Shown here: positions 36,289-47,755 of the stretch, piece after piece
Layout: each line of letters begins with the position of its first letter
Numbering within the stretch: position 1 is the stretch's first letter
Origin: Rheinheimera texasensis DSM 17496
GTDB taxonomy: Bacteria > Pseudomonadota > Gammaproteobacteria > Enterobacterales > Alteromonadaceae
Direction: 5' to 3'
Assembly: GCF_000711985.1 (NCBI RefSeq)
Contig: NZ_KL544005.1
Coordinates: 323,970 to 387,969, forward strand
DNA: 64,000 bases
Position numbers and translations under genes: made by a program
The notes under the pieces: model-generated
Database searches by the model: none
Seen by the model: the letters and a program-made list of their open reading frames with translations, nothing else
Told to the model about the DNA's origin: nothing

Positions 36289-39200
36289 TTGTACCCAAGG
36301 ATTGATGTTTCTTCCGCGAAATTGCTTGGACTATGTCTGATTCCTGCAGCTCTATTCAATGTGCCGCTCTCTGCCATGGCAGAACCAACCTCCGGCGATA
36401 CTGCAACCGCATACCGGATTATTGCAAAACCTGATGGCAGCAAGGTCCGTGAACCAATCAGGGAGCTCCCGAATGGCCAGCAACGCTATTTGATTGAACT
36501 GCAGCAATCTGCGGTGTTACCTGAAATGATAGCGAGTGCCTCAACACAGTCTTTGACGGTCAACAACATACCGGTTCCGCAATTAATGCAGGCCACTTAT
36601 CAGGTGCTACAGCAACAAACTGAACTCAGCAGTGTGCTGCAGAATCAGGGGCTGATTAGTGAAGTGCTCGACAGCACACAATTGCTGCTGAACGGTCTTG
36701 TGGTCACTGCAGATCCCGCCAATGTGGCATTATTACGTTCCTACCCAGGCATCAAAAGCATCACACCAGACCGAGAGATCCAATTACATCGCCGCGAATC
36801 CATTCCGTTGATCCGGGTCGATCAGGTGTGGAAATTAACTAACAACACGGAAAAAAATCTGACAGGCCAGGGGATGCGGATTGGCGTCCTGGACAGTGGT
36901 ATCGACTATACCCATCCGGAATTGGGCGGCTGCTTTGGTGAAGGCTGTAAAGTCGCCGGCGGCTACGATTATTACGATAACGACGCCGATCCACAGGATA
37001 AGGACGGTCACGGCACACACGTCGCCGGGATCATCGCCGGCAAAAGCGATAGTCAGCCGGGTGTAGCACCAGATGCCACTTTATATGCTTACCGGGTCTG
37101 TAGCTACTATTGTTCAACCATAGGTGTCATTCAGGCTTTGGAAAGGGCGGCCAACCCGGACCAGAACCCGTTGACCCAAGATGCGCTGGATGTGGTGAAC
37201 TTAAGTTTGGGCGGCCCAGGCACACAAGATGACCCGATGACTATCGCGGCTAACAATGCCGTCAAAGCCGGTATTGTGGTGGTGGCTTCGGCAGGAAATG
37301 ACGGTAGGGCCTACGGCGCTTTGGGTGCTCCGGCTAATGCTGAGCTTGCCATTACTGTGGCAGCGACGACAAAAACCGATCAGATGACAAGTTACAGCTC
37401 ATATGGCCCCGCCGATACTGACCTGTTTATCAAACCGGATTTAGCAGCCCCAGGTGACGAGATTTTGTCTACCACCCCTGGCAATCAGGTTCAGTACAAA
37501 AGCGGTACATCGATGGCAGCGCCTCATGTCGCAGGCGCGGCAGCTTTGCTAAAACAACAACAACCCACTCGCACCCCTGCGATGATCAAGTCTTTGTTAA
37601 TGAGTCAGGCCAAAGACATAGGTGCAACCGTCGCCGAACAAGGCAGTGGCAGGCTCGATGTACTCACAGCGACACAAGCTGCACTGACAATTGCGCCGCA
37701 ATCGTTGTCCTTTGGCAAACTGGACAGAAGTCAGAGCCTATGGCAGGCCGAACGCAAATTCACGCTGTTTAATCACGCTAACAGCAGCAAAAAATTAAAA
37801 CTGACGCTACCGCCCCTGCCGGCTGGTATCAGCCTGCAAACATCACTGGCAGCTGACGCAGAGATTGCTGCCGGCGCCACGCTCGAAGTGAGCTTGCAGA
37901 TACAGGTGAATACCAGTCAGTATCAGTCGCAATCCAATAGCCTGATGCAAGGCCTGGTCCTGCAGTTATCAGACGGCAGCAATCAGTACCGTATGCCGCT
38001 GGCGTTGATGGATTATCACAATCAAACTATCAATACCGCGGGCCAGCATCTGAATAACCTGGTTATTTTCAATGATTCCGGCGAACGGATTTACAACGGC
38101 TATGCGTTTAATAGTCAAAACATTCGTTTGACGGCCGGCACATACGACTATATCGCCGAGTATCTGGATTATGACCGGCTGAAACTGGTGGTATTGGAAA
38201 AGCAGTCTGTGAACAGTGCCAACACTGTTAATCTGGACCCGGCTTTGGCCAGACACAAATTTGCAATGAGCCAAATAAACGATGAGCAAGGCAACGCTGT
38301 TAATTTAACGAGTATTACTGGCGGATTAGAAGCTGTTGAATTGCGCCATAAGACTAAATCGATTTATTACAATCGTTTATATCCACAAAAAAATTGGCTG
38401 GGTCTATCGGTTAGCATGCTGGGAGATAAAGCCCTGTATCTGTCTGACTTGTCTGCTGATTATCAAATAGCAATTTCCGGCAGCTGGTATCCGCCAGTCG
38501 TAGTCAAAAATCAAGTGAGTATTTATTCGACGGTTCGGCGTCTGTCCGGAGTGACATCAGGTGAGAACCTGCAGCTTGATGCCCGTAACATGAATAAACA
38601 ACAATCTGAATTACCTGTTGCCAGCACAGTTTCCAGTCTCACTATTGGATATTTTGTAGACACACAATTAAATACTATTGAATACCCATGGATGAAAGGC
38701 AGCCTTCGGGTTGGCGGATATGGCTTTCGGGCTGCCGAAACAAATCCAGGAGAAACTGCAAATTTAACCTGGTACGGCGACGGAATTACGCTGGCCCCCT
38801 TTTTTGGGGTCGGTAAATATCATATTGATTATGCTGACAATCAAATCGTTTCAGATTATTTCCGCTTCATACCCGGAGGCGGAACAGGCTATATCGATGA
38901 TTACTATACGTTTGTTAATGATACATACAGCCGAGGACATAGATATCGTGATGTAAATATGGTCGGACACCAGCTGTTGAGTACAGATCTGGGCTGGCAG
39001 CGGCATATGCAATTTGGTGCAGCCGATGAACCAAAAATCGAAATCACGACGAGAGAATATAACTTTGCAGGACACGAAATCAGGTTAACCGAATTGCAAA
39101 ACAAACCCGCTGCATCCTCTTATTTGCGCTGCGACTTTGCCGCGGAACAGGAAGTAAAAAAGGGGGGAATATTTAACAGCTACGAATTTGATAAAAAATG

Positions 39201-40392
39201 CCAACACCTCAGTGCACGTCTTAGCTTCACTACCCAATTATGGGGCGAAGCAAACGAAGGCATGGCCAGAATCAACTGGACAGATGTTAAACAGGGTTAT
39301 TTCAGTGGTATACGCGGCCTGACCATTGGCAGCGGCAAGAAAAATAGCCGGGAGCTGCAGAACGGCAATGGTTGGGTGCAAATCAGTGCCACAAACACCA
39401 CAATTCCGGCAGCGGCGATTTATCACAGTGGCCAATGGCATCCGCTGAATCTGCAGCAACAGTCTGCCAATCCTGACAGCCTATCGATTTGGCGGGCAGA
39501 ATTCAGTGTCACGGATAAGGCACTGCTGATCCCGCTTCAGATCATGACAACCAATGACACTGGCACTAACTACAGCATGATTATTCCAAATGCCTTCGTG
39601 GCCGGCGATCCGACAGCAGCCAAACTGCTAGATCAGGATAAAGACGGGCTGGCCGATTATAAAGATGCTGACGATGACAATGATGGCATTAGCGATATCC
39701 TGGAGCTGAGTTATCAGATGGATCCGACCCAAAATGATTTAACGGGTGATGTCGATAAAGACGGCTTAACCAACCAGCAGGAAATCACGCTGGGCACTCT
39801 GCCGCACCAACCGGACACTGATCTGGATAAGATGCCGGACGGCTGGGAAGTGAAAAATGCATTGAATCCGCTGCTGACCGCTGATGGTTCATTGGATGGT
39901 GACAAAGACGAGTTAATCAACTCGGCAGAATATAAAGCCGGCACAGATCCGGCTAAAGCGGATTCAGATACCGACGGTCTGCCGGACGGCTGGGAAGCGA
40001 AATATGCGCTTAATCCACTCAGCGCAGCAGATGCCGGGACTGATACTGACAAAGACGAGTTAATCAACAGCGCTGAATTCAAAGCACAAACGGATCCGAC
40101 AAAAGCAGACACCGACAATGACGGAATGCCAGATGGATGGGAAACCAAATACAGCCTGAACCCACTCAGCGCGGCAGACGCAGCTTCAGATACCGACAAC
40201 GATGGTAAAACCGCGCTGCAGGAATATCAGGGCAATACCAACCCGACAGTAGCAGACAAACCGGCAACGAGTGGCAATACCGGCACGGATACCTCAGGTA
40301 ATAGCGGCAGTTCAGGCGGTGGCAGTCTCGATTGGTGGTGGCTGGGATTGCTATTGCTTGGCGTCCGGCGATTTCCACACCGTCTGGTGTAA
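36289..40392 (+). CDS. secreted subtilisin-like (S8) serine protease with GlyGly-CTERM-type tail
   Basis: The protein is 1367 residues from a TTG start, supported by AAGGA 6-7 nt upstream. A signal peptide (cleavage likely after SAMA, residue 31) is followed by an I9-like propeptide (about 60-165) and an S8 catalytic domain. The triad is D202 (LDSGIDYTHP), H241 (GHGTHVAG) and S408 (GTSMAAPHVAG), with oxyanion Asn337. A long beta-rich region (about 480-1110) follows that I cannot assign. Then come calcium-binding type-3-like Asp repeats from about 1115, including three 49-residue tandem copies. The C-terminus is a Gly/Ser linker, a GGGS motif, a hydrophobic stretch (DWWWLGLLLLG) and Arg residues. 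This resembles a GlyGly-CTERM signal, which is linked to type II secretion and rhombosortase processing. Confidence 0.92.
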   Translation: MYPRIDVSSAKLLGLCLIPAALFNVPLSAMAEPTSGDTATAYRIIAKPDGSKVREPIRELPNGQQRYLIELQQSAVLPEMIASASTQSLTVNNIPVPQLMQATYQVLQQQTELSSVLQNQGLISEVLDSTQLLLNGLVVTADPANVALLRSYPGIKSITPDREIQLHRRESIPLIRVDQVWKLTNNTEKNLTGQGMRIGVLDSGIDYTHPELGGCFGEGCKVAGGYDYYDNDADPQDKDGHGTHVAGIIAGKSDSQPGVAPDATLYAYRVCSYYCSTIGVIQALERAANPDQNPLTQDALDVVNLSLGGPGTQDDPMTIAANNAVKAGIVVVASAGNDGRAYGALGAPANAELAITVAATTKTDQMTSYSSYGPADTDLFIKPDLAAPGDEILSTTPGNQVQYKSGTSMAAPHVAGAAALLKQQQPTRTPAMIKSLLMSQAKDIGATVAEQGSGRLDVLTATQAALTIAPQSLSFGKLDRSQSLWQAERKFTLFNHANSSKKLKLTLPPLPAGISLQTSLAADAEIAAGATLEVSLQIQVNTSQYQSQSNSLMQGLVLQLSDGSNQYRMPLALMDYHNQTINTAGQHLNNLVIFNDSGERIYNGYAFNSQNIRLTAGTYDYIAEYLDYDRLKLVVLEKQSVNSANTVNLDPALARHKFAMSQINDEQGNAVNLTSITGGLEAVELRHKTKSIYYNRLYPQKNWLGLSVSMLGDKALYLSDLSADYQIAISGSWYPPVVVKNQVSIYSTVRRLSGVTSGENLQLDARNMNKQQSELPVASTVSSLTIGYFVDTQLNTIEYPWMKGSLRVGGYGFRAAETNPGETANLTWYGDGITLAPFFGVGKYHIDYADNQIVSDYFRFIPGGGTGYIDDYYTFVNDTYSRGHRYRDVNMVGHQLLSTDLGWQRHMQFGAADEPKIEITTREYNFAGHEIRLTELQNKPAASSYLRCDFAAEQEVKKGGIFNSYEFDKKCQHLSARLSFTTQLWGEANEGMARINWTDVKQGYFSGIRGLTIGSGKKNSRELQNGNGWVQISATNTTIPAAAIYHSGQWHPLNLQQQSANPDSLSIWRAEFSVTDKALLIPLQIMTTNDTGTNYSMIIPNAFVAGDPTAAKLLDQDKDGLADYKDADDDNDGISDILELSYQMDPTQNDLTGDVDKDGLTNQQEITLGTLPHQPDTDLDKMPDGWEVKNALNPLLTADGSLDGDKDELINSAEYKAGTDPAKADSDTDGLPDGWEAKYALNPLSAADAGTDTDKDELINSAEFKAQTDPTKADTDNDGMPDGWETKYSLNPLSAADAASDTDNDGKTALQEYQGNTNPTVADKPATSGNTGTDTSGNSGSSGGGSLDWWWLGLLLLGVRRFPHRLV
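39814..40254 (+). repeat. three tandem 147-bp repeats in the subtilase gene
   Basis: Units begin at 39814, 39961 and 40108, an exact 147-bp (49-codon) pitch that keeps the reading frame. Each encodes an Asp-rich calcium-type loop, a PDGWE motif, a LNPL segment and a DTDKDE-type loop. The third unit is more diverged at its end. Such repeats can expand or contract by recombination. Confidence 0.88.
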
Positions 40393-40488: not shown

Positions 40489-40856
<368 letters not shown>

Positions 40857-40862
40857 GCGCGG

Positions 40863-40868
40863 ATTATA
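40863..40868 (-). promoter_or_regulatory. -10 box of the rnpB promoter
   Basis: A perfect TATAAT on the minus strand lies 7 bp upstream of the predicted rnpB 5' end, followed by a GC-rich discriminator (CCGCGCC), typical of stable RNA promoters. No strong -35 hexamer is seen at 16-18 bp. Confidence 0.7.
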
Positions 40869-41014
40869 CGCAGATCTTCAGCAGAACGCAGCAAGCTTTC
40901 GGTGCTTATTCTCCGGTTCAAGCCGTTTCAGCCGCGAACAAAGATAAATACTTTCGTCAAATACACTCATTGTGTAATATGGCGCGCTTTTATTTTTATA
41001 AGGATATATAAAAG

Positions 41015-41587
41015 ATGTTAAATAAATCTGTTTTAGGTTTTTTGCTGCTGGCAGCGAGTGCAGTTCAGGCTGAATCGGCAAATCCGTTGTACGCAGGTCT
41101 GGTCCTGCAATCCAATACGCTGAAAATCAATACAGTCAGCGGCAATGCCAAATTCGAACCAGCTATGACTGGTGTGGCACTGGGTTATGAATTCGCCGAC
41201 TACTTTGCTCTGGAAGGCCGCGCGCTGAAAGACAGCAACTCGGATGAACTGGGCCCGGTCAAAGTGAAAGTTAACAGCCAGTTCCAGGTTCAGTTGCGGG
41301 CACACTACCCGGTACTGGAACAAGTACGCGTTTATGCCACCCTGAGCCACGTGCGTTCAAACTACGAAATGCGTGTGACGCCAAACGGCAGCGGCGGTTA
41401 TGCAGTTCGTTTTGATCAAAGTGGCGCCGGTTATGCGGCAGGTGTTGAATATCTGCTGACACCACAATGGAAAGTCGCAGTAGAACAACAATGGTTACCG
41501 GAAGAAGATTTAAATGACCGCCTGACCGGTACCGGCATAAACGCAGACGCTAAAGCGCTGACTTTTACTGCCAGCTACGCGTTCTGA
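41015..41587 (+). CDS. small outer-membrane beta-barrel protein (OmpA/OmpW-like porin family)
   Basis: A 190-residue protein with a signal peptide (MLNKSVLGFLLLAASAVQA, cleavage after Ala19). Alternating hydrophobic/polar strands follow (LYAGLVLQSNTLKI, TGVALGYEFADYFALEGRA, FQVQLRAHYPV, YAAGVEYLLTPQWKVAVEQQW), ending in TFTASYAF. The C-terminal Phe preceded by alternating aromatics is the usual signal for outer-membrane insertion. About eight strands fit the length. The ATG follows a stretch with AAGGA about 9 nt upstream. The specific role is not evident. It has its own terminator. Confidence 0.88.
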   Translation: MLNKSVLGFLLLAASAVQAESANPLYAGLVLQSNTLKINTVSGNAKFEPAMTGVALGYEFADYFALEGRALKDSNSDELGPVKVKVNSQFQVQLRAHYPVLEQVRVYATLSHVRSNYEMRVTPNGSGGYAVRFDQSGAGYAAGVEYLLTPQWKVAVEQQWLPEEDLNDRLTGTGINADAKALTFTASYAF

Positions 41588-41631: not shown

Positions 41632-41775
41632 ACATCTTATATGACGCGTAAGAGAAGCTAAGCCGAGTCAGCAGCCTGTCTATTAGAGAAATTTAGATTA
41701 CTTAAGCCAACTCGTGACGCGCATTGTGGGCAAAGTCCCGCACACGATCAGTCCGAAAACAACCAAAGATTTTAG

Positions 41776-44700
41776 TCATAATCGAGCAAACAAGACTGCA
41801 AGTTGAATTCTCGACCACCAGTCATGACCTAAACCATTCACTCTCTGTGACAAAAGCACCTTTCTTAACCATGCAAGATGTAGATAACTCGCTGATGGTG
41901 GTCTATTTCGGCGCCATTGGCTGACTCTTACTAATGCCGCTTTGCCAACGAGTTGTTGCTGCTGAATATCATGCAAATGCACCAACAATTGACATACCCA
42001 TTGCTCAATCTCTGTCAATTCGGCCGGATTTAATTGCGTAGCTAAATCAAAGTCGGTTGGAGCTATTGAGCCTTGCAGCGCCAAATCCCACAACAAAATA
42101 TTGTGAAAAAAGTCATCACGCTCCTGCTCAGCTGCATGAGCGGCAAGCTGCCTGGCTTGATCGATACGCCCTAAAGCAAGACATGCCATCAACTGTTTAT
42201 AATTCAGCTGCATGCTTTGCTTCTCAGCAGGCACAGCTTGCAATAGTTGTAATGTCGTCCACCAATGTGCATGGGCATTACAAATTTCCGCCGCGACCAG
42301 CAAAATATCCGGCCAGAATTGCCAGGCATTAAACTGCTGCTCAAACATGCTGTGTACCGGGCGTTTTTCAATAGCGTGGAAATGCCACAAATAACCAATC
42401 CAGGCACCAGCGACCCCCGCCGAGAGAGGTGCTGATAACAAAAATTGCTCCAGCATCACTTGCTGTGAAGATAGCATATGCTCGGCGTAGACCCGCCCCA
42501 TCGCATCCGAGCCTTGCACTAAATATTGCTGCAACAAGTCCAACATTGCCGCTTTCGCTTGCCCCGCAGCATTGAGCGGGGTGTTGTACACCCAGTGGTT
42601 ATCAAGATTGAACTGTAGCAATTGCTGCCACAACTCTAACAAACTTGCATGCTGTTGAGCTGCAGCGCTGATTACCCGGCGCGATAGTACCCAACCATCC
42701 TGGGAATATTGCCATAATTGCGTCAGCGCTTCTTCCGCCGCAGTCCAATCTTTTTGCTGATGCAGCCAATCAATCAGCGTTAAACCTATATATTGATCGG
42801 CAGGCCTTAACGCAAACGCACGTTGATAACTATCAGTGATTTGACGCTGATACTGGACTAGTTTGAGACCCTCGAGCGCTTCGCCTGCGCGGCACAACGC
42901 GGCAGCATCATGAGGCTCCCGCTCGATCAACAACAATGCAAATTCAGCCAACTGCTTTTTGTCGTCAAGTTGCTGTAACAACCCAAATAGTTTGCCGTAA
43001 TACCAAACATCGTCGTGAGCATGGCGAAGATAATTGGCCAACAGATCTGCGGCGGCCTGCCCCTGCCCAATTTCGACATGTGCGCGCGCCTGCAACTCCA
43101 AAATCAGTAGTGGCCGCTCGGTTGGGTAATAGTGCGCTAAATGTGCGAATACCTCGCTATAGTGTGCGAGTGTTAACTGCTGCATCAGGAACTCATGATG
43201 CACACTGTCGTTCTGCGGTTGACGTGCGATCGCCTTCTTTAAAAAATCCAATGCTTGCTCAGGGTCATCTACACACTCCGCTAAGATGCGCAAAGGCCCC
43301 ACAGCAAAGGGATGAGACTCTACCGCAGTAGAGGCTGCGTTCTGTAGCGATTGCAGAGATTCCGCATCCTGTTTGACTAGCTCAAACCAAAAACGCCAGG
43401 CCCAGATATAATCAGGGTCAAGCGCTACCGCGCGTTGGAGGCACAAAACTGCCAGCTCTGGTTGCTGATTGTGCTTATGGGCATCGGCCAGAAAGCCATG
43501 CAAAACAGCGTCAGCGCTGTCATGCCGCAACGCCTGCTGCAAAACCTCGACTTCCTCAGCATAACGGCCTTGAGCTGCCAAACATTCTGCTAATAAACGC
43601 GAGGCAAAGAACCAGGATGGATTTAACGTCAGCGCGGTTTCAAACGCCGAAATAGCCTCATCCACTTGCTGGTTAAGACGATATAGTTGGGCCAGCTCAA
43701 CAAATGGACGCGGCATTAAAGGGAAATCCCGACAGCTTTGTTCCAACTGAGCGATAGCGGCTGGCAAATCAGTGGCTTGCAGTGACCAAGCCCACACCAG
43801 CCGACTTTGCCACAAATGCACATTGGGTTTGACCACTTGGTTAATCAAACGAGCTCGCTGGGCCGGTGTCATCACTTGTTGCCCTTCGAACCAACAATCA
43901 AATATGCCGTTGCCATAGAGCGTGTGACTGATGAGTTGATCCAGCAAAAAGTCGATCTGCTGCTGTTTCCACGCTGTGCTCACGCGCAAACGCAACAGTA
44001 ATGTACTGGCGTCATCGTGATCGGGATCCTCAGCCAATACTTGCCGCAGCAACACTTCAGCTTGCTCCAGACGCTGCATAGCTTTGAGCACCCGGGCCAA
44101 GAGTACTTTGAATTCAATATGATCCGGCTGATGCGCAACCAGCTGCTCAGCGCGCATCAACGCATCGTCTAGCCGCAATTCATCTAAACAACAACGGATG
44201 TACTCTCGTTGACGACCAACATGATAAGGATACAACGCAGCCAAGGTCGCAACAGCCTGGTTACGCACTGCAGGCTCCGGATGGAAATTTGCCTGATAAT
44301 CCAGCACCACCGGATAATGCTCGGCCTGCAGCGCCAGACTTCCCAATTGTGCTAATAAGGTGTCTTGCATCCCTGCGGCTTTCAACGTGCGAAGATACGG
44401 GGATGCCAACTGGTAGTTAAGGGGGCTTTGCGCAAAAAGCAACTGATAATGCTCAGCGGCCTGGCTCAAATCGCCATGCCACTCAGCACGCCGACCATAC
44501 CAGTAATGCATTCGACTAGCAGGCAATAATGCTGACGCCGCATCGCCCCATTGGTCAAAGGTTTCCACTTGTGCTTGATTCAACAACTCGCCTAAAGCAA
44601 ATTCGTACACTGCGGGATCGCCAGGTCGTAATTGTTTTGCCTGCTCCAGTATTTGCAGGGCTTGTCGGTATTGTTTTTGTTGAGCATACAGTTGATACAA

Positions 44701-46713
44701 CAACTTAGCAGGCTGCACTGAACGTATTGCGTATTTATTGAACTGGCCCTGTGCTAGCGCAAGCCCAACATCTGGACGATTTAAAAAACGACAGGCTTTA
44801 AAATACGACTCAAAATAGTCGATATAAGTATCGTCCAGGCAACAGGCGAAATAATAGTGGCGTGTCGCATCTTCATAGTTTTTTTGTTGCCATGCATAGT
44901 CCGCTAAAGCGTCGTAGACCCGCGCGTTGTAGCTACCAAAACGTTCCAGTTGTTGCCGTATTTTTAACGTTAACCATTGATATGGCTGCAAACTATAAAT
45001 CATGCGGAACAGGCGTAAACGCAAATCAGTATGGGGGCGAACAGCAAGTTCGTTTTGTAAATAATCGATCGCTTGCGTATTGTGCCCTTGCGTAAGGAGA
45101 CTCTGCACATAAGACAATCGCCATGGCACCGAGTCCGGGAAGATTGCCAGCAGTTGCAAGGTTAACTCAGAAATCGCACGTTCATCTTCAAGTTCAATCG
45201 CTAATGAGCGTCGCGCCATGGTGGTCAGCAAATGGGTTGGGAACTGCGCTTCCATGTTGGCTATGCTGTGCTTCATCAGCACTATATCCTGCACCGTAGC
45301 TGCTTGCTGATATTCCGCATACAACGCAAACAGCTGCACCTCATCGCAATAAAAGGGTGACAAACGATTGGCTTGCTCTTGTGGCACGAAAATTAAAGCG
45401 CGAGCACCTGCCGCTTGTTCATCCGCCAAACCCTCTGCCAATAGATATTCCACTGGTGTATCAACCCCAGGGTCCATCAACAGCGCCACACCAAGCGCTT
45501 TGTGATAGCCAATAACAGCTTGTAAATGCGAGGTGCTACCGCTGGTGGTGACAAAAGCAAAAGGCAGCTGCGCATCAATCAACTGATAACACAGCTCAGG
45601 AGTGAGCGAACGTTCGATAAAACAAAAACCATGCTGAGTTAACCAGCGCCGCTCCAGAACATCCGGTGTACCGTCATAACAAATGGCTTGGATAATATCC
45701 TGTTGTGAAACGGGATAACCAAAATAGCGACATAACGCTGTCATAGTCGCAGGCGCGCAAGTCAGATGTCCCTGTTGCTCATGCGGTACCGGCAAGACCA
45801 CAGGATAGATATCGTCAGCAGTCGCCGCTTGAAGGTGGTGATGCAATAACTGGTAATGGCTGCCCTGAGTTTGAGCCATCTGCTCGCGCGCCAGCAGTAA
45901 ATCCCCCTGATGCAACGCAAGCCTGGCTTTTGCGGCCGCCAGAATAGTGGTTTCGTCGCGGTCAGGATGCCGCAACAGGGCTTGATAACAGTCAAGCGCT
46001 TTTGCCATTCCGGCAAAATCGTTTAGCTTTTGGCAAAGGGTAATGAGTTGGCGATATGGGCGAACTGATTGAAACCGCGATGCGTGCGCCCAAAGCAATT
46101 CACACGCCTGCTCTAACTGCTGATTTTTTCGCAGCGCCGATACCCACATGTTCAGTGTTGAGAGCACCGGCCGCTCTGCAAACAAGGCCTCGGCAGCAGC
46201 TAAATATGCAGCTCGATCTTCGCGGGTATCAAACAAACTCACCTTAAGACGACGTGCCCACAGATAATCCGGTTGCCGCTGTAACACTTCATCTATCAGC
46301 AATTCGGCGCCATCGACATCCTTTCGTTCCAACAGCAAAAGGGCGTCAGCCAGAATATTGTCTAACTCTCCTTTCTCGCCTTGACCATGCAAGAGGCGAT
46401 AACGCTGTAGTTGTCGCTCCATCACTATGGGACCATGAGAACTCAGCAGATGAAACAGATAGTGCTGGCAGAAGTCTGGGTCTTGTGGAAAACGTCGCCA
46501 GCCTTTTAGCTGCAGCGCAGTACTCGCGCGATCGTTCCCCAAATGGCTTAAAACACGAATAGCAATTTTAATCTGCTCAGATCCAAGCCACTGTTGCCAA
46601 GGGCCAAAGTGCAACTCTGCCAGTTCCAAAGCGCTGAGATATTGGTCTTTTTTGATGAGTGCTTTGATGTCGATTAAAAGATCAACATGCGGGGTCGAAA
46701 GCGTCAAATCCAT
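41776..46713 (-). CDS. giant TPR protein with embedded C39-like cysteine peptidase domain
   Basis: A 1645-residue protein with no signal peptide and no clear transmembrane segment, so probably cytoplasmic. Residues 15-300 are TPR-like helical repeats. Residues 303-445 form a papain-fold, C39-like domain with Gln313 (oxyanion), Cys319 in HLTCAPATMTALCRYFG, His396 in GSTSHLQAVIGYHKALG and Asp414 in LLMDPG. The triad order and spacing fit the C39 family. From about 450 to the end there are dozens of degenerate TPRs, with canonical examples such as DEAISAFETALTLNPSW and EVLLRQVLAEDPDHDDAST. AGGAAA lies 5 nt before the ATG. No transporter, leader peptide or other partner is adjacent. I do not recognise a characterised homologue. 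The function is unknown, and a peptide- or protein-processing scaffold is only an inference. Confidence 0.85.
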   Translation of the reverse strand: MDLTLSTPHVDLLIDIKALIKKDQYLSALELAELHFGPWQQWLGSEQIKIAIRVLSHLGNDRASTALQLKGWRRFPQDPDFCQHYLFHLLSSHGPIVMERQLQRYRLLHGQGEKGELDNILADALLLLERKDVDGAELLIDEVLQRQPDYLWARRLKVSLFDTREDRAAYLAAAEALFAERPVLSTLNMWVSALRKNQQLEQACELLWAHASRFQSVRPYRQLITLCQKLNDFAGMAKALDCYQALLRHPDRDETTILAAAKARLALHQGDLLLAREQMAQTQGSHYQLLHHHLQAATADDIYPVVLPVPHEQQGHLTCAPATMTALCRYFGYPVSQQDIIQAICYDGTPDVLERRWLTQHGFCFIERSLTPELCYQLIDAQLPFAFVTTSGSTSHLQAVIGYHKALGVALLMDPGVDTPVEYLLAEGLADEQAAGARALIFVPQEQANRLSPFYCDEVQLFALYAEYQQAATVQDIVLMKHSIANMEAQFPTHLLTTMARRSLAIELEDERAISELTLQLLAIFPDSVPWRLSYVQSLLTQGHNTQAIDYLQNELAVRPHTDLRLRLFRMIYSLQPYQWLTLKIRQQLERFGSYNARVYDALADYAWQQKNYEDATRHYYFACCLDDTYIDYFESYFKACRFLNRPDVGLALAQGQFNKYAIRSVQPAKLLYQLYAQQKQYRQALQILEQAKQLRPGDPAVYEFALGELLNQAQVETFDQWGDAASALLPASRMHYWYGRRAEWHGDLSQAAEHYQLLFAQSPLNYQLASPYLRTLKAAGMQDTLLAQLGSLALQAEHYPVVLDYQANFHPEPAVRNQAVATLAALYPYHVGRQREYIRCCLDELRLDDALMRAEQLVAHQPDHIEFKVLLARVLKAMQRLEQAEVLLRQVLAEDPDHDDASTLLLRLRVSTAWKQQQIDFLLDQLISHTLYGNGIFDCWFEGQQVMTPAQRARLINQVVKPNVHLWQSRLVWAWSLQATDLPAAIAQLEQSCRDFPLMPRPFVELAQLYRLNQQVDEAISAFETALTLNPSWFFASRLLAECLAAQGRYAEEVEVLQQALRHDSADAVLHGFLADAHKHNQQPELAVLCLQRAVALDPDYIWAWRFWFELVKQDAESLQSLQNAASTAVESHPFAVGPLRILAECVDDPEQALDFLKKAIARQPQNDSVHHEFLMQQLTLAHYSEVFAHLAHYYPTERPLLILELQARAHVEIGQGQAAADLLANYLRHAHDDVWYYGKLFGLLQQLDDKKQLAEFALLLIEREPHDAAALCRAGEALEGLKLVQYQRQITDSYQRAFALRPADQYIGLTLIDWLHQQKDWTAAEEALTQLWQYSQDGWVLSRRVISAAAQQHASLLELWQQLLQFNLDNHWVYNTPLNAAGQAKAAMLDLLQQYLVQGSDAMGRVYAEHMLSSQQVMLEQFLLSAPLSAGVAGAWIGYLWHFHAIEKRPVHSMFEQQFNAWQFWPDILLVAAEICNAHAHWWTTLQLLQAVPAEKQSMQLNYKQLMACLALGRIDQARQLAAHAAEQERDDFFHNILLWDLALQGSIAPTDFDLATQLNPAELTEIEQWVCQLLVHLHDIQQQQLVGKAALVRVSQWRRNRPPSASYLHLAWLRKVLLSQRVNGLGHDWWSRIQLAVLFARL

Positions 46714-46897
46714 GACAATTTCCTGCTTTTCATGATTTTTTGTTGTAGTGCTTGTCGAACACTAACAGAGGAGTCTTAACCGAACAACGTCAATATAACC
46801 CACAAAAAACACATTGGTTAACCATTATTAAACAATTGCTGATTGAAATTATATTTTGTATTCAAGCTAGCGATTTCGACTACTCTGTTAAACCGCT

Positions 46898-47755
46898 TTA
46901 GTCAGAAGTATGTCCACTCCAGCTCAGCCCCAACTTATATAAGGCATTTTTCTTTTCGCCATGAATTTCTGCTGTCAGCGCCGCGGCTTTTTTCAGTGGC
47001 AATTCCGCCATCAGTAGCCGCAGTGTCTGCTGCGCGACCGGATTGATATCATCGGCGGCTTTTTCGGCGGGCGGCGCTATCATCAGCACCATTTCGCCCT
47101 GACAGCGCTGCGGGTCTTCTTCCAGCCAGGCGATAATTTGTGCCGCTGTGCCGTGTTCAAAATGCTCAAAGGTTTTGGTCAGCTCTTTCGCCAGCACCAG
47201 CTCGCGCTCAGCGCCGTACACAGCAATCACATCCTGCAGCGTATCAATAACCCGGCGTGCCGCTTCGTAACAAATGACCGTACCGACGCCTGACGGAATG
47301 TCTTTCAGCACCTGCTGACGCTGGCCGGATTTGGCCGGTAAAAAGCCGATAAAATGAAACTTATCTGTCGGTAAACCGGCACAACATAAAGCGGCAATCA
47401 GCGCGCAAGGGCCGGGGATGGGTACCACTCTGACGCCGGCGTCGCGGCACAAGCGGACCAGGCTATAACCCGGATCTGAAATCAGCGGGGTGCCGGCGTC
47501 ACTAATGAGTGCGACGTTCTCCCCTGCTTTGATTTTTTCCACCAGACTGGCAGCGCGTTGTTTTTCATTGTGGTCGTGTAAAGATAAAAACCGAGCCGAA
47601 ATTCCTAGATGACTCAGCAACTTACCGCTGTGACGGGTATCTTCAGCGGCGACCCAGGCAACTTCACGTAGCACGGCTACCGCGCGCTGACTGATATCAT
47701 CCAGATGGCCTATAGGCGTGGCAACAATGTATAAAACGGCTTCAGAGGCAGACAT
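46898..47755 (-). CDS. rsmI: 16S rRNA (cytidine-1402-2'-O) methyltransferase RsmI
   Basis: RsmI methylates the 2'-O of C1402 in 16S rRNA and complements RsmH, which is encoded at 29897-30853. At 285 residues it is a tetrapyrrole-methylase-fold enzyme. Motifs are LYIVATPIGHLDDIS, the AAEDTRHSGKLL segment, LISDAGTPLISDPGY and VPIPGPCALIAAL. It diverges from lpoA with a 140-bp gap, a highly conserved arrangement. Confidence 0.97.
   Translation of the reverse strand: MSASEAVLYIVATPIGHLDDISQRAVAVLREVAWVAAEDTRHSGKLLSHLGISARFLSLHDHNEKQRAASLVEKIKAGENVALISDAGTPLISDPGYSLVRLCRDAGVRVVPIPGPCALIAALCCAGLPTDKFHFIGFLPAKSGQRQQVLKDIPSGVGTVICYEAARRVIDTLQDVIAVYGAERELVLAKELTKTFEHFEHGTAAQIIAWLEEDPQRCQGEMVLMIAPPAEKAADDINPVAQQTLRLLMAELPLKKAAALTAEIHGEKKNALYKLGLSWSGHTSD

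Follow-up and report, generated by a model that had tools for sequence, protein, structure and literature searches.

A conserved C39-like cysteine peptidase domain predicted within a giant TPR protein of Rheinheimera texasensis and its relatives

The DNA analyzed here, referred to as the window, is a stretch of 64,000 nucleotides from Rheinheimera texasensis DSM 17496 (NZ_KL544005.1, positions 323,970 to 387,969). It carries a gene for a giant protein that combines a C39-like peptidase domain with TPRs (Table 1); the gene lies on the minus strand, a point on which the preliminary description of this DNA was silent. Its neighbors are rsmI (46898-47755) and a gene for an OmpA-like protein (41015-41587), and a division/cell-wall cluster is close by, the gene names having been assigned by eye. 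The locus also adjoins rnpB (40490-40854, minus strand), recognized as RNase P RNA (RF00010, 326.6 bits). The copies of the giant gene in two other genomes, G006 and G020, likewise adjoin rnpB, that of G006 being placed between rsmI and rnpB. Three copies have a conserved 'ORF' next to them, at 40623-41021 in the window; it overlaps rnpB and is probably spurious. The plus strand at 36289-40392 encodes a 1367-aa subtilase of the S8 family, which contains TSP3 repeats and has a GlyGly-CTERM-like C-terminus (13.3 bits, cut-off 15.5); the corresponding stretch of the near relatives G009 and G018 gave no match to it, and a 140-aa ORF occupies its place in G009.

Table 1. Features of the C39-TPR gene and its surroundings (window coordinates)
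Feature	Position	Strand	Basis
C39-TPR giant protein gene	41776..46713	-	ORF call and Pfam; 1645 aa
N-terminal TPR-like helical array, residues 7-295	45829..46695	-	AlphaFold helices
C39-like (papain-type) peptidase domain, predicted, residues 305-454	45352..45801	-	Pfam, AlphaFold, Foldseek, VIA-align 2
Codon of proposed oxyanion Gln314	45772..45774	-	kept in 81/81 members
Codon of proposed nucleophile Cys319	45757..45759	-	81/81 members; aligns with a ComA Cys
Codon of His396	45526..45528	-	81/81 members; aligns with a ComA His
Codon of Asp414	45472..45474	-	79/81 members (Glu in 2); aligns with a ComA Asp
Main TPR array, residues 457-1194 (modelled part)	43132..45345	-	Pfam, AlphaFold, Foldseek
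C-terminal tail (last 40 residues), cationic with net +4 and containing Trp; proposed membrane tether	41779..41898	-	charge counts
Segment without counterpart in near relatives G009 and G018, from rsmI end to ompA-like terminator; only gene is the C39-TPR gene	41633..46910	.	locus comparison

Several TPR families exceeded their Pfam cut-offs in the window protein (TPR_19 with 88.6 bits against a cut-off of 25), the best stretches lying between residues 847 and 1109. An AlphaFold model of residues 1-1195 (46 members; pLDDT 91.7, pTM 0.88) consists of helical repeats at 7-295, an alpha/beta domain at about 305-454 and helical repeats again at 457-1194, so that the paired-helix solenoid typical of TPRs accompanies the profile matches. 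Since helix pairs both precede and follow the alpha/beta domain, the peptidase is predicted to lie between two TPR arrays. Both this model and that of the isolated domain described below end before residues 1196-1645, which include the tail. In a Foldseek comparison with the PDB, the 1-1195 model retrieved helical-repeat proteins such as IFT-A subunits, Ski3, Ctr9 and OGT (E down to 3e-15), with TM-scores by model length of 0.13-0.23 among the matches listed; because these scores are low, only the repeat type, a long TPR or TPR-like solenoid, is shared with them. None of the PDB matches listed combines a solenoid with a C39 domain. Searches of NCBIfam gave one generic TPR domain model above its cut-off and otherwise matches below the cut-offs, mostly to TPR families, including TIGR02917 (XrtA/PEP-CTERM TPR protein PrsT) with 65.1 bits against a cut-off of 312. 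The only PADLOC match of the protein, PDC-M71B (E 8e-4, residues 980-1041), falls inside the TPR part. Apart from TPRs, Peptidase_C39_2 (PF13529) is the only domain family above its Pfam cut-off, and because hydropathy over 19 residues reaches at most 1.44, the protein has no membrane-type segment. The preliminary description, which spoke of a TPR protein with an embedded C39-like domain and without transmembrane or ABC parts, was correct on both points.

The PF13529 match covers residues 308-406 with 26.1 bits in the whole protein (cut-off 24) and reaches 33.1 bits when the window domain is scanned alone; of the family domains scanned, 55/55 match it at E <= 0.1. At the same threshold Peptidase_C70 (PF12385, AvrRpt2 type) is matched by 44/55 (best 2e-7), and the C70 structure 6hqz is among the Foldseek matches of the domain model, but the window domain itself has no PF12385 match at E <= 0.1 and PF13529 matches better. 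The exporter family PF03412 is matched by 16/55 domains at E <= 0.1 (best 9e-6), and the window protein shows no match to it at E <= 1. An AlphaFold model of residues 291-467 (55 family members) has a mean pLDDT of 92.6, and among solved structures Foldseek ranks the PCAT1 and ComA peptidase domains highest (E about 5e-6). With VIA-align 2 this model superimposes on the endoisopeptidase PeiR (Z 16.1, rmsd 2.3, 137 aligned), ComA (Z 15.5, rmsd 2.4, 131 aligned), the PCAT-type protease 6mpz (Z 15.4, rmsd 2.5, 133 aligned), PCAT1 (Z up to 14.8), staphopain (Z 14.2, rmsd 3.2, 143 aligned) and the C39-like protein 3erv, an example of PF13529 (Z 13.9, rmsd 2.5, 144 aligned). Residues 305-454 are therefore predicted to be a C39/papain-type cysteine peptidase fold, as had been proposed for residues 303-445.

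In order to describe the active site we counted residues in the window protein and 80 related loci. Gln314, Cys319 and His396 are present in 81/81 members and Asp414 in 79/81, the other two having Glu. In a profile alignment with ComA, which is weak on its own (E 0.025), the family Cys, His and Asp fall on the Cys, His and Asp that we take to be the catalytic residues of ComA. The domain agrees with PF13529 in its predicted papain-type fold, in its Cys/His/Asp set and in its oxyanion Gln. The set named in the preliminary description was Gln313/Cys319/His396/Asp414; the numbering of Cys, His and Asp stands, and the oxyanion Gln has to be moved to 314, because position 313 is Arg in 70/81 members. 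That description had also made its reading depend on Cys319 being conserved in homologues, which is what the counts give. Two short motifs served to find the loci, the first spanning the Cys and the second the His; 42 of the 80 loci contain the His motif only, 19 the Cys motif only and 19 both. Since each residue was assessed on loci not picked for it, the conservation is not merely the result of selection by the scan.

A domain alignment of nine rows was used to scan 84,980 species genomes for relatives; an earlier scan with the window protein alone had found none, and the domain alignment was needed. The scan gave 94 relatives, a minimum because it is motif-based, and the best 80 of the 94 were analyzed. 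Among these 80 loci, 54 entered the domain alignment A4, 45 the alignment A5, and 65, or 66 rows once the window is added, the tree and the statistics on the tail. One locus from a bin labelled Bordetella parapertussis (L084) was excluded from A4, A5 and A6 and included in the residue, length, phylum and tail counts. The architecture is fixed: 63 of the 73 frames complete on both sides are 1640-1800 aa long, usually with the peptidase near residues 300-470. The other 10 comprise five frameshifted frames (L061, L077, L121, L122, L132), one that stops early near a contig end (L101), one with a late start (L081), two with an upstream start (L088, L094) and one that is longer within (L071). The copies split by an apparent frameshift are mostly from metagenome bins and may reflect either sequencing error or pseudogenes. 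By record title, full-length copies occur in seven phyla (Pseudomonadota, Planctomycetota, Verrucomicrobiota, Myxococcota, Acidobacteriota, Armatimonadota and Cyanobacteriota), many members being metagenome bins; Armatimonadota and Cyanobacteriota are each represented by a single bin. One more record (L107), titled Nitrospira, has a copy cut by the contig end. Six taxon searches gave matches in two groups, one above 150 bits with frames of 1654-1702 aa and one below 40 bits with frames of <500 aa. The long form is rare, being present in 6/394 genomes of the order, 6/295 of the family, 3/369 of the class and 3/398 of the phylum, and in 2/40 and 6/79 genomes of two other families; these six samples overlap, and those of order, family, class and phylum include the window's own genome.

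Of all parts of the protein, the peptidase domain is under the tightest constraint. Among nine members the mean pairwise identity is 0.47 in the domain compared with 0.26 elsewhere, and 26/147 positions are invariant in the domain compared with 49/1498 elsewhere; this nine-member set is not independent of the 81, because seven genomes are common to both (L056, L058, L060, L062, L065, L073, L074). In 46 members, 13/13 invariant columns of residues 1-1195 are inside the C39 domain. dN is lowest in the domain in 9/9 pairs of relatives (one tie), and dN/dS is <0.5 in every computable segment and lowest in the domain in 4/6 close pairs. The protein is under purifying selection, which is strongest in the peptidase domain; positive selection on the TPRs was not seen in the dN/dS of nine pairs. 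In the FastTree phylogeny the window protein joins the copies from the rest of its genus on a long branch, to which the usual warning about long branches applies.

The C-terminal tail is cationic. The mean net charge of the last 40 residues is +5.2 across 66 full-length members, and the charge is positive in 65/66 (56/57 when near-duplicates are removed), compared with a mean of -1.0 and 27% positive for internal 40-mers of the same members. For 117 neighbor proteins (mechanically called frames, selected as described below) the last 40 residues average +0.4 and are positive in 53/117. At least one Trp is found among the final 35 residues in 63/66 members, compared with 60% of internal 35-mers and 39/117 neighbors. 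The last 70 residues contain a membrane-type helix (hydropathy >= 1.6) in 6/66 members, five from Verrucomicrobiota and one cyanobacterial (Acaryochloris) (L078, L083, L091, L092, L093, L127), and lack one in 60/66; 5/6 of the carriers are among the 11 members with a net tail charge under +3. This distribution suggests that charge and helix are two ways to one end, tethering to the membrane. A cationic tail would also fit binding to RNA, ribosomes, other nucleic acid or acidic proteins.

C39 peptidases are the front door of ABC exporters: they sit at the cytoplasmic face, and the domains normally remove double-glycine leaders. The giant family resembles the exporter C39 domains (PF03412) of PCAT1 and ComA in its predicted papain-type fold and in the aligned places of Cys, His and Asp. 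It differs from them in having neither an ABC nor a transmembrane domain, in the insertion of the peptidase in a TPR array and in the spacing from Gln to Cys, which is 4 residues as opposed to 5 in exporter C39. We infer, tentatively and at slightly less than an even chance, a stand-alone, membrane-apposed C39-like cysteine peptidase housed in a TPR superhelix, with its client chosen by the TPRs. In a superhelix of ~1650 residues the peptidase would be an insertion behind the initial repeats (residues 7-295), and the TPR arrays would bind a client and place it for cleavage by the C39 domain, with Cys319/His396/Asp414 as the triad and Gln314 as oxyanion residue. The protein would be cytoplasmic and held on the inner face of the membrane by its cationic aromatic tail or, in some lineages, by the membrane-type helix. 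The site of work would be that of exporter-linked C39 peptidases, with a TPR scaffold instead of an ABC transporter.

The fold and the triad are no proof that peptides are hydrolyzed, because several related folds, among them those of phytochelatin synthase and BtrH-type acyltransferases, do not belong to peptidases. The strongest rival is other acyl-enzyme chemistry, in which the C39-like domain is active and Cys319 forms an acyl-enzyme, the acyl group being transferred onto a TPR-held client by a ligase, transglutaminase, deamidase or phytochelatin-synthase-like reaction. Structures of phytochelatin synthase (Alr0975), some of them acyl-enzymes, superimpose on the domain model with Z about 13 (13.2, rmsd 2.9, 145 aligned), and at E <= 0.1 the phytochelatin synthase family PF05023 is matched by 1/55 family domains and PF09778, a papain-type family of unsure activity, by 5/55. 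PMC10318531 groups C39 in one cluster with phytochelatin synthase and the BtrH acyltransferase. However, the strongest matches in both sequence and structure are peptidases, and we consider acyl transfer unlikely, if the most serious of the alternatives.

Leader processing in trans is a second alternative: the protein might cut double-glycine-type leaders from precursors that are encoded elsewhere and exported by another transporter. In its favor is the structural likeness to PCAT1 and ComA, whose peptidase domains remove leaders, and the genome does have one PF03412 match, on another contig, in a frame of 711 aa together with an ABC ATPase. That exporter, however, already has a C39 domain of its own, and the TPR scaffold is far larger than such peptidases need. 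Nor do the surroundings of the genes point to precursors, since small ORFs of 25-100 aa up to 2 kb away recur only among close kin, and motifs resembling a GG leader are not enriched in such ORFs (49/2589 compared with a shuffled mean of 65). A crude test for an exporter nearby (Walker-A plus LSGG[QE]), which can miss ABC proteins, was positive in 1/80 loci, and none of the genome's 58 ABC_tran matches (E <= 0.001) is inside the window. The earlier claim that no exporter or precursor gene lies nearby is upheld by these searches, and we regard leader processing in trans as improbable.

No conserved operon was found: when 688 neighbor ORFs of >= 90 aa from the 80 loci were clustered, no family occurred in >5 loci, and the largest cluster came from close Planctomycetota. 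In a Pfam tally of the 117 neighbor proteins at most 3 shared one family among the families listed (25 of 178). These proteins are the first 132 of 221 candidates (up to L097) minus 15 dropped by eye, namely the L061 frameshift fragment, the frames from L079, L084 and L094, and frames suspected to be spurious. Proteins of >1000 aa and ten near-duplicate loci had been removed from the candidates beforehand. As judged from gene neighborhoods, the C39-TPR gene seems to act as a single gene, with no neighbor family accompanying it across phyla. The S8 subtilase was considered as a partner and rejected: when its catalytic part served as a tblastn query (E <= 1e-5), subtilases turned up in L033, L034 and L073 alone, which amounts to 1/80 named loci (L034 and L073 are one genome), although remoter subtilases could be missed. 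Four Myxococcota loci (L114, L128, L129, L133) have a homologous protein, kinase-like by eye, 0.4-3 kb upstream. Three Acidobacteriota loci (L109, L117, L123) have homologous short proteins, which we take to be WbuC-like, 14-74 bases upstream.

A single gene of patchy distribution could also be a defence or conflict protein, its TPRs sensing an invader and its peptidase acting on a host or phage target. Within the genus 3/22 genomes have the long gene. It is missing from G018 and from G009, a genome with rsmI and ftsI products 98.6% identical to those of the window; in both, the gap between rsmI and the OmpA-like gene is about 110-120 bases, and the extra segment of the window holds this gene alone. 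By this comparison the gene would have been either gained in the window lineage or lost in G009. Divergence at a shared locus is also fast: between the window and G006 the flanking proteins are 57-91% identical, as against 34% for the C39-TPR protein and 59% for its domain. On the other hand, no defence family recurs among the 117 neighbors; 46 PADLOC families match at E <= 1e-5, and each of those listed (25 of 46) is matched by one protein, e.g. PDC-S73, PD-T4-6, mad6 and QatD, counts for which there is no background set. Relatives are encoded in 0/71 motif-bearing viral stretches and, with three queries, in no plasmid, and a mobile element was rejected on these grounds. There is no sign of an arms race, because no dN/dS is near 1. 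A role in defence therefore appears improbable as well. Least credible of all is a pure scaffold, in which the C39 domain would be a dead structural or peptide-binding module: TPRs do dominate the length, but the catalytic Cys and His are invariant, the Asp nearly so, and no part of the protein is more constrained.

We return to the stand-alone peptidase with a TPR-chosen client. A bolder form of it, which we find doubtful, is an exporter-free C39 system: the giant membrane-tethered TPR superhelix would replace the ABC transporter and feed a chosen chromosomal client, during its synthesis or before export, into the C39 site in the coil. If this is true, the family is a widespread single-gene regulatory or maturation protease, seemingly undescribed, in at least seven phyla. 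What calls for attention is that a C39-related domain has been kept with its catalytic residues in a fixed TPR protein across many phyla with no recurring exporter or precursor beside it. Identification of the client would open a seemingly undescribed protease pathway, and the family offers a clean test of a repeat scaffold turned into a substrate-selecting protease.

The domain type and the repeat type are each already known; the fixed giant architecture seems to be undescribed. The preliminary description knew of no characterised system with this layout. Our search of the open-licence literature, with most subscription journals outside its scope, agrees in that it found no paper describing a giant C39-TPR family, but a family combining C39 and TPRs has already been named (PA2778, NF033920). 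PMC10318531 presents PF13529 members as single-domain peptidases, which the window domain, inside a protein of 1645 aa, is not. The PA2778 family is alike in joining a C39-like domain to TPRs, and 46/55 family domains match NF033920 at E <= 0.1; the window protein, however, scores 13.3 bits against its cut-off of 150, with the best stretch in TPR residues 1004-1099. Eight short C39-TPR proteins of 321-365 aa with lipoprotein-like starts (L042, L043, L044, L139, L024, L145, L148, L143) are probably of the PA2778 type, and they differ from the giant family in size, in these starts and in having the TPR after the domain, as judged by eye. Several of them have, also by eye, His-Ser-Gly or His-Thr-Gly in place of the giant family's Asp-Pro, and their third catalytic residue may be a different one.
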